Shown here one piece after another: positions 750 through 2,020 of a stretch of DNA of 64,000 bases; within the stretch, counting starts at the first letter, position 1; each line of letters starts with the position of its first letter. Origin of the DNA: Leisingera sp. ANG-Vp (GTDB taxonomy: Bacteria > Pseudomonadota > Alphaproteobacteria > Rhodobacterales > Rhodobacteraceae); NCBI RefSeq assembly GCF_000813725.1, contig NZ_JWLD01000063.1:1-64000 (forward strand), written 5' to 3'. The notes under the pieces were generated by a model, which was given only the letters and a program-made list of their open reading frames with translations, was not told where the DNA came from and did no database searches. A program made the position numbers and the translations under genes.

Positions 750-827
750 ATGACCCGTATCGTTGCCGCATTCTGGTATTTCTTCTATCCGCGCCACACG
801 GCGGACGGAGGGGTCATCGCATTCTGA
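750..827 (+). CDS. Putative aromatic-rich leader peptide of the DAHP synthase gene
   Basis: This 25-codon frame (ATG to TGA) reads MTRIVAAFWYFFYPRH and then nine further residues. Codons 8-13 are Phe-Trp-Tyr-Phe-Phe-Tyr, the three end products of the pathway that starts with the DAHP synthase encoded 100 bases downstream. A GC-rich hairpin with a T-run (859-887) lies between the peptide and that gene. This is the classic layout of ribosome-mediated transcription attenuation: stalling at the aromatic codons would prevent the terminator from forming. Bases 800-804 (GGCGG), just after the stall site, can pair with 861-865 (CCGCC), the 5' arm of the terminator, as an antiterminator. No strong Shine-Dalgarno is visible, so the start codon is uncertain. 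Confidence 0.75.
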   Translation: MTRIVAAFWYFFYPRHTADGGVIAF

Positions 828-858
828 AAACCAGTCAGAAAGCACCAGGACACCAACC

Positions 859-887
859 AGCCGCCCGCACCCGCAGGCGGCTTTTTT
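859..887 (+). terminator. Attenuator-type intrinsic terminator before aroG
   Basis: The stem AGCCGCC (859-865) / GGCGGCT (876-882) has a 10-base loop and runs straight into six T residues (882-887). It ends 41 bases before the aroG start and directly follows the aromatic leader peptide, so it most likely terminates transcription when aromatic amino acids are plentiful. Confidence 0.75.
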
Positions 888-928: not shown

Positions 929-2020
929 ATGACACCGCAAACCGAAAATCTCCGCATCACCGGCATGCAGGAACTGATCTCTCCCGAAGACCTCGCCCTG
1001 CAGCTGCCGGCCAACGAGGCCGCGGCTGGCACAGTGCTGGCCAGCCGCGCCGCAATCCAGAGCGTCCTGCACGGGCGCGATGACCGGCTTGCCGCGGTTG
1101 TGGGGCCCTGTTCCATCCACGACCCCAAGTCGGCGATGGACTATGCAAAACGGCTGCAGCCGCTGCGCGAACGCCTGGCCGGGCAGCTGGAGATCGTGAT
1201 GCGGGTCTATTTCGAAAAGCCCCGCACCATCAGCGGCTGGAAAGGCCTGATCAACGATCCAGGGCTTGACGGTTCGTTCCGCATTAACGAGGGCCTGGGC
1301 CTGGCCCGCCGGCTGTGCCTGGACATCAACGCGCTGGGCCTGCCTGTGGGCACAGAGTTCCTGGATACAGCGGTGCCGCAGTACATCTCCGATCTGGTTG
1401 CCTGGGCCGCCATCGGCGCCCGCACCACCGAAAGCCAGATCCACCGCGAAATGGCCTCAGGGCTTTCCTGCCCGGTAGGGTTCAAGAACGGCACCCGCGG
1501 CAATGTGCAGATCGCGGTGGATGCAGTGCGCTCGGCAGCGCATCCGCATCATTTCATGGCACTGGCCAAATCGGGCCGCGCGGCGATTGCTGCCACCAGC
1601 GGCAACCCGGACTGCCACCTGATCCTGCGCGGCGGCGGCGGCACCAACTATGACGCGGCTTCGGTGGATGCGGCCTGCAAGCTGGCGGAGAAGGACGGCA
1701 TCCGCGGCCACGTGATGATCGATGCCAGCCATGCCAACAGCGGCAAGGACCCCCTGAAACAGCCGGCCGTTCTGACCGATGTGGCAGAGCAGATTGCAGG
1801 CGGTGACCAGCGTATCACAGGTGTGATGATTGAAAGCCATCTGGTGGCGGGCCGCCAGGATCTGGGCAAAGGAGAGCTGACCTACGGGCAATCGGTCACC
1901 GATGGCTGCCTGGGCTGGGAGGACACGGTGGCCGAGCTGGAAAGACTGGCAGATGCGGTAGAGGCCAGGCGTGCGAAAACGGCTGCTGGCAGCCCTGCTG
2001 ATGCATTGGCCGAAGTCTGA
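929..2020 (+). CDS. aroG: 3-deoxy-7-phosphoheptulonate (DAHP) synthase, class I
   Basis: It catalyses condensation of phosphoenolpyruvate and erythrose 4-phosphate, the first step of the shikimate pathway. At 363 residues it has the size of the E. coli AroF/G/H type and shows typical blocks: AVVGPCSIHD near residue 55, YFEKPRT, GWKGLINDP, GARTTESQ, GFKNGT, and HVMIDASHANSGKDP late in the barrel. The ATG is preceded by AAGGAC. The N-terminal extension typical of feedback-regulated enzymes is present, but the inhibitor specificity cannot be read from sequence. The leader peptide and terminator upstream predict regulation by the supply of aromatic aminoacyl-tRNAs. Confidence 0.95.
   Translation: MTPQTENLRITGMQELISPEDLALQLPANEAAAGTVLASRAAIQSVLHGRDDRLAAVVGPCSIHDPKSAMDYAKRLQPLRERLAGQLEIVMRVYFEKPRTISGWKGLINDPGLDGSFRINEGLGLARRLCLDINALGLPVGTEFLDTAVPQYISDLVAWAAIGARTTESQIHREMASGLSCPVGFKNGTRGNVQIAVDAVRSAAHPHHFMALAKSGRAAIAATSGNPDCHLILRGGGGTNYDAASVDAACKLAEKDGIRGHVMIDASHANSGKDPLKQPAVLTDVAEQIAGGDQRITGVMIESHLVAGRQDLGKGELTYGQSVTDGCLGWEDTVAELERLADAVEARRAKTAAGSPADALAEV

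Follow-up and report, generated by a model that had tools for sequence, protein, structure and literature searches.

What is a short reading frame with a row of aromatic codons doing just in front of a gene for the first step of the shikimate pathway? The question is raised by the beginning of a stretch of 64,000 nucleotides from Leisingera sp. ANG-Vp (the window, by which we mean the whole stretch that was analysed), where a 25-codon ORF, a T-tailed hairpin and aroG follow each other on the same strand (Table 1). An initial annotation had taken the arrangement for an attenuator of the trp/phe type, and the comparison with relatives presented below supports it. Very probably the region is a ribosome-mediated transcription attenuator of aroG, which would answer to the supply of Phe, Trp and Tyr; this is a reading of the leader and its relatives at the level of sequence.

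The product of the gene is a DAHP synthase (3-deoxy-7-phosphoheptulonate synthase) of class I, the AroFGH type, with 504 bits to TIGR00034 (cut-off 173.2). NF006723, the model that NCBIfam has for AroG proper, gives 497.7 bits where 568 are required, and the gene letter G is therefore used as a convention here. The gene upstream, with a product that looks chemoreceptor-like by eye, is co-directional with aroG and has its stop at 621. The whole genome holds one class II DAHP synthase besides the class I aroG, and since an aromatic-rich uORF is lacking from the 600 nt before the class II gene, the leader would govern one of two DAHP synthase isozymes. The first view, that the aromatic amino acids could feed back on the first shikimate step, is supported and has to be narrowed to one isozyme. 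Nor is there a Trp-rich uORF in the 400 nt upstream of trpE in the same genome. In the sample of the family a class I gene was obtained from only 9 of 149 genomes, this one included. The leader-controlled aroG is likely an extra synthase that is made once any of the aromatic amino acids becomes short.

Table 1. Coordinates in the window of aroG and of the predicted elements of its leader
Feature	Start	End	Strand	Basis
Predicted -35 box GTGACA, 17 nt before the -10 box	714	719	+	sequence; TGAC(A) conserved upstream of 69 uORFs
Predicted -10 box TAGCGT	737	742	+	TA conserved upstream of uORFs
Leader peptide uORF, 25 codons, MTRIVAAFWYFFYPRHTADGGVIAF	750	827	+	translation; R1 model match 750-887
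Control codons Phe-Trp-Tyr-Phe-Phe-Tyr	771	788	+	chance test by shuffling; uORFs of relatives
Strand 1, last control codons and CCGC; pairs with 801-809 if ribosome-free	784	792	+	folding
Strand 2, antiterminator 5' strand; core GGCGG 800-804	800	815	+	core kept in three frames; folding
Antiterminator 3' strand; core CCGCC 861-865 is strand 3	849	865	+	folding
Intrinsic terminator (strands 3 and 4), T tract 882-887	859	887	+	folding; stem kept in relatives
aroG, class I DAHP synthase	929	2020	+	TIGR00034, 504 bits

The peptide with its six consecutive aromatic codons is as first described, and it is hardly a product of chance. The block, in which Phe is encoded three times, Tyr twice and Trp once, is the sole stretch of at least five aromatic codons in the six frames of the window, and an ORF with such a run arose in none of 5000 dinucleotide shuffles of positions 622-928 (a run of four arose in 6). 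Clustered codons for the amino acids of a pathway in a short ORF are what is looked for in an attenuator, and they are found here in a uORF that is predicted to be translated. From the composition of the block one would expect a response to Phe, to Tyr and to Trp, and the last may be the weakest.

Relatives of AroG were collected in two ways. A protein scan of named genomes gave 80 loci, the best 80 of 587 relatives, to which the class I genes of the family sample were joined; with the own locus added and four duplicates dropped, 85 distinct AroG loci were obtained. Leaders were recognised at 69 loci by a script with two requirements, a uORF of 8-45 codons in which four or more of eight residues are aromatic and a T-tailed stem after it, and the covariance model described below added L047 (71.7 bits) and L088 (36.8 bits). 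With L024 left out, where the sequence ends 46 nt before the gene, a leader with its terminator is present at 71 of the 84 readable loci in this set (best 80 of 587 relatives and family sample), in alpha-proteobacteria and Xanthomonadales. It is absent at the other 13 of these 84, namely five titled beta-proteobacteria or kin (L044, L045, L050, L051, L058), four Methylococcaceae (L064, L067, L074, L077), and L063, L078, L080 and L081, which are Anaeromyxobacter, Coxiella, Thiogranum and Cedecea records. In the genus, leader and aroG occur in 21 of 21 genomes, 40-46 nt apart, and in the family the leader is found in all nine genomes that yielded a class I gene; a peptide or terminator missing from close relatives, which the initial annotation had named as the result that would speak against it, is thus not what we see. 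A quick tree of 103 AroG proteins places the alpha-proteobacterial and Xanthomonadales rows in one group of 78 (support 97), within which L024 alone has no visible leader, and the leader label requires five changes on the tree as a whole. The tree is no census, because 22 of its 103 rows were picked for having a leader.

Some of these records deserve a remark of their own. L005 and L031, with the record titles Nocardioides marinus and Mycobacterium sp. KBS0706, have an aroG and a leader very close to those of Leisingera and Inquilinus, respectively, and the two assemblies are probably mislabelled or contaminated. At L078 (Coxiella sp. NVSS01000092.1) an aromatic-rich uORF with a GTG start, SFYAYRFSNFFYFS, lies before aroG at 837-884; the leader script recognised no T-tailed hairpin after it, and it is possibly a different form of control. 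At L154, from a genome of the same class as Leisingera, a divergent cobalamin riboswitch (RF00174, 116 bits, positions 1101-1286, minus strand) adjoins the aroG leader.

Upstream of the ATG, the most conserved positions among the 69 leaders include a TGAC(A) near -35 to -31 and a TA at -13/-12. By loose patterns, TA lies at -16 to -12 in 63 of the 69 and at -13 in 39, and a Shine-Dalgarno-like 4-mer is present at -16 to -5 in 3. The positions of the boxes put the transcript start at about 749-750, at the ATG itself, and the uORF is therefore predicted to be leaderless, like trpL of S. meliloti. A simple consensus scanner (with a generic sigma-70 scan) found neither a terminator nor a promoter in 600-1000, so the calls of hairpin and promoter rest on comparison.

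A T-tailed terminator just before the gene was part of the first description and is confirmed, 41 nt upstream of aroG. Its arms, 859-868 and 873-882, have one mismatch and run into six T at 882-887, and it is the sole structure when 838-887 is folded (-16.8 kcal/mol). For the leader as a whole (745-890), none of 200 shuffles folds as well, and z is -3.24. The proposed antiterminator at 800-804 also stands, as GGCGG there is exactly complementary to CCGCC at 861-865 in the 5' arm of the terminator; what had to be revised is its extent, as the helix is longer and interrupted, the predicted pairs being 800-804 with 861-865, 807-808 with 857-858, and 811-815 with 849-851 and 853-854. For the full leader without a ribosome, the predicted fold consists of the 1:2 structure and the terminator, and the pairs of 784-792 with 801-809 have probabilities of 0.34-0.56 in the 750-830 fragment. 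Stalling was modelled with the A site on each of codons 8 to 13 in turn and the 3' edge of the ribosome assumed to lie 14 nt past the first A-site base. With the RNA made up to 872, the probability that 800-804 pairs with 861-865 is 0.83-1.00 at each of the six stall positions. When strand 4 is included, the terminator is favoured at equilibrium, with a 3:4 probability of at least 0.89 in every state folded. Since the terminator wins once strand 4 is present, the switch must be kinetic, and decided before strand 4 (876-882) is made.

From these elements we infer the start site, the stalling, the switch and the response to each amino acid as follows. RNA polymerase would start at the ATG at 750 or one or two bases away from it, closely followed by a ribosome that translates the leaderless uORF. 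A shortage of charged tRNA-Phe, tRNA-Trp or tRNA-Tyr would make the ribosome stall in codons 8-13 and cover strand 1, and 800-815 would pair with 849-865 before strand 4 exists; with the 5' arm of the terminator occupied in this way, transcription would continue into aroG. If all three tRNAs are charged, the ribosome would reach the stop codon at 825-827, strand 2 would be either covered or refolded with strand 1, and with strand 2 not free the hairpin at 859-882 would form and transcription would end in the T tract.

The alignment of leaders and the covariance analysis that had been proposed as a check were both carried out. Phe, Trp and Tyr codons are all present in 69 of 69 aligned uORFs, which were selected on aromatic density and not on Trp. 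The core of strand 2, [G/A]GCG in alignment columns 67-70, is kept in all 69 as well, although it is read in three frames: as NNG.GCG in 62, as GGC.GGA in 4 (Phenylobacterium, with one extra base) and as CGG.CGG or CAG.CGG in 3. In the leaders with NNG.GCG, Ala is preceded by one of L, M, Q, T, K, A and P, always with a codon that ends in G. Selection at the core therefore acts on the RNA, which the pairing of strands explains and a constraint on the peptide does not.

For comparison of the strands themselves, 111 leaders were reduced to 81 distinct strand triplets. The terminator stem has 99.8% of its cells paired over 67 distinct rows, with an outer pair that is G-C in 38, A-U in 28 and G-U in 1; the covariation of the stem is carried by this outer pair alone, and a slide of +3 equals its score of 0.150. 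In the 2:3 antiterminator 83.9% of cells are paired, against at most 55.3% when slid, and its covariation is modest (0.050 against 0.062 at a slide of +1 and 0.056 at +3). The first pair of the 2:3 core is G-C in 74 of the 81 rows, A-U in 4, G-U in 1 and A/C in 2, where both A/C rows are due to Inquilinus-type leaders, which allow two registers and were entered with the first. In the A-U rows (L076, L088, L154, L158) strand 3 reads CCGCT and strand 2 AGCGG, which makes an A-U pair in 2:3 and only a U.G pair in 3:4. As these rows retain the G in strand 4, the exchange fits pairing of 2:3 and not of 3:4, and it may represent one or two events. Caulobacter-type leaders (7 of the 81 rows) have lost the last core pair, and their helix can be extended by C-G and U-A at the opposite end.

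Folding against randomised leaders says less. When codons were resampled synonymously, the 2:3 pairing was no better than the null (median p 0.54), although it was better than the null mean in 42 of 69 leaders, and reached p of 0.05 or less in 4%, and the 1:2 region folded better than the null in just 21 of 69; against letter shuffles a weak signal is seen for 2:3 (median p 0.27, p of 0.05 or less in 20%). The synonymous null failed to separate observed from resampled leaders, probably because tails rich in Ala and Gly pair with CCGCC whatever codons are used, and we have used the conservation in three frames instead. Together with the modest covariation these outcomes put a real limit on the case for the alternative helices.

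To see how far the leader reaches, a covariance model, R1, was built from 69 leaders (138 positions, 7 pairs). In the own genome it matches the leader at 110 bits, this leader being in its training set, and the second match has 19.3 bits. The samples searched with R1 comprised 385 genomes from the class, 299 from the phylum and 31 from around genome G768, with at most 30 loci fetched per search. Counts refer to fetched loci, outside which are five matches at 32-34 bits (G728, G777, G617, G784) and many below 31 bits. At 33.4 bits or more in the own, class and phylum scans, AroG is directly downstream at 41 of 42 fetched loci, among which are the own leader and L141, both members of the training set; at the 42nd, L111, the contig ends 52 nt past the hairpin. 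Around G768, AroG is downstream of 21 of 21 fetched full-length matches at 28.7 to 54.6 bits, including the lowest of them (L190). In total AroG is next at 62 of 63 fetched full-length matches with at least 31 bits or confirmed by the gene. At weak matches, below 31 bits or below 20 in the own genome (L098-L104, L118-L133, L191-L197), there is no AroG at 29 of 30 fetched, and the remaining one, L193, is a match to the opposite strand of a genuine aroG leader.

R1 thus finds copies inside and outside the class, and the element is not local. The peptides differ strongly, from FWYFFYP in this genus to FWYFSYPTPL in Caulobacter, YFWYFSYDSS in Bradyrhizobium, FYFWYYFP in Pseudoxanthomonas and FYFYFFWHL in family f212, which we take to be Burkholderiaceae-like, that is, beta-proteobacteria in the older sense. 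A Trp codon is absent from 12 of 42 further leaders (L047, L107, L109, L110, L111, L112, L114, L116, L117, L152, L153, L161). We hypothesize, with about as much doubt as belief, that these are one homologous and hitherto undescribed family of leader RNA which travels with aroG in alpha-, gamma- and, if f212 is rightly placed, beta-proteobacteria, where a single leaderless uORF senses three aromatic amino acids at the entry of the shikimate pathway and turnover of codons tunes the set that is sensed.

Other functions can be imagined for a leader of this kind. Its main task could lie in trans, in which case the terminated RNA of about 138 nt would be a leaderless mRNA or a small RNA, its peptide or the RNA itself would regulate other genes, and attenuation would be a by-product or second role. 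The predicted leaderless uORF is the arrangement of trpL, for which roles in trans are described in the passages of PMC7298713, but here the peptide is unconserved past the aromatic block, where strand 2 is read in its three frames, and every fetched copy above 31 bits with downstream DNA lies in cis before aroG. We consider a mainly trans-acting leader improbable; a second role in trans is compatible with these findings, and the terminated leader RNA may have one. Still less probable, to a degree that leaves it little room, is that the hairpin simply terminates the upstream gene and that the aromatic ORF is accidental: it does sit between two co-directional genes, but about 240 nt past the stop of the first and beyond the conserved promoter-like boxes, the codon run is not reproduced by shuffling, and aromatic codons, strand 2 and hairpin stand together before aroG even in distant genomes. 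A riboswitch that binds an aromatic compound, with no control by the ribosome, would likewise be a conserved leader RNA with a terminator upstream of a biosynthetic gene, but it is scarcely credible here, where what is conserved can be translated as a row of aromatic codons and varies among relatives by synonymous change and by swaps of Phe and Tyr, where RNAalifold shows no conserved fold apart from the terminator, and where no family of Rfam 15 is above its gathering threshold at the leader or at the leaders of 20 related loci.

Two Rfam families below threshold were looked at. RF02552 (RcsR1) gives 22.2 of 60 bits at the leader, which we take as a resemblance of terminators. RF02884 (BcKCsr7) gives a weak full-length match of 16.6 of 59 bits and was rejected as a prior description of the leader, as it matches sites other than those of R1 in the same genomes and precedes an acetylornithine transaminase gene. 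RF02884 is of some interest in itself. At L164 and L168 this family, named 'Burkholderia sRNA 7' in Rfam, contains a T-tailed hairpin and a uORF in which four Arg codons stand in a row (MIRILNALRRRRSPLP; MLSLQTNLRRRRSLLP), and the gene directly downstream at L164 is that for acetylornithine transaminase (NF002985, 755 bits where 568 are required). By its looks the element is a leader for attenuation by arginine and not a small RNA acting in trans. A table row in PMC10987360 equates BcKCsr7 with nc5U30.

Full-text searches, which covered neither most subscription papers nor the attenuator surveys of 2004 and 2010, did not return an aroG leader in proteobacteria, and none is mentioned in passages of PMC4117421, PMC1173090, PMC8632094, PMC1273637, PMC5343134, PMC2965389, PMC7298713, PMC10117765, PMC4833913, PMC5688073 and PMC10987360. 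Ribosome profiling of Caulobacter has recorded leader CDSs, e.g. one before trpS, according to the passages of PMC4117421. A widespread element that has no model in Rfam 15 is missed by annotation based on Rfam. If the attenuator reading is right, the common entry step would be under control at the level of RNA, with one uORF reading the charging of three tRNAs as an OR gate, and the natural variants with different aromatic sets would allow lineages to be compared for the amino acids that each of them may sense.

The trpL, pheL and hisL leaders of E. coli are amino-acid leader attenuators in which antitermination is decided before strand 4 is available. The aroG leader is like those of trp, phe and his in having a uORF with codons for the product, strands that can pair as 1:2, 2:3 and 3:4, and a T-tailed terminator before the structural gene; unlike them, it precedes the first common step and has codons for three end products. 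In the textbook case of E. coli itself the DAHP synthase genes are controlled by the repressors TyrR and TrpR, and attenuation is found at the branches, trp and pheA (in part after passages of PMC5343134). Closer in lineage is trpLE(G) of S. meliloti (rnTrpL/peTrpL), where the RNA begins at the ATG of the uORF and control by attenuation is stated in the passages of PMC7298713 and PMC10117765. As far as those passages go, the leaderless uORF of this alpha-proteobacterial attenuator is matched by a predicted one in the aroG leader, but the S. meliloti leader has Trp only and lies before trpE(G), whereas the target in Leisingera is aroG. Closer in target is uORFC-13-1 (PMC8632094), a uORF with Phe codon(s) and a terminator before aroF of Acholeplasma, for which attenuation was proposed from 24 sequences of Acholeplasma and unassigned environmental DNA; compared by its description, it shares the uORF and terminator before a DAHP synthase gene and differs in reading Phe only. 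Attenuators were also predicted upstream of aroF-tyrA operons in Vibrio, taken from a prediction database in the passages of PMC1173090, and there too the gene that follows encodes a class I DAHP synthase. The mechanism that we propose is thus of a known kind, and what appears to be new, judged from the papers searched and from Rfam 15, is aroG as its target, a putative sensor for three amino acids and an RNA family that has not been catalogued.
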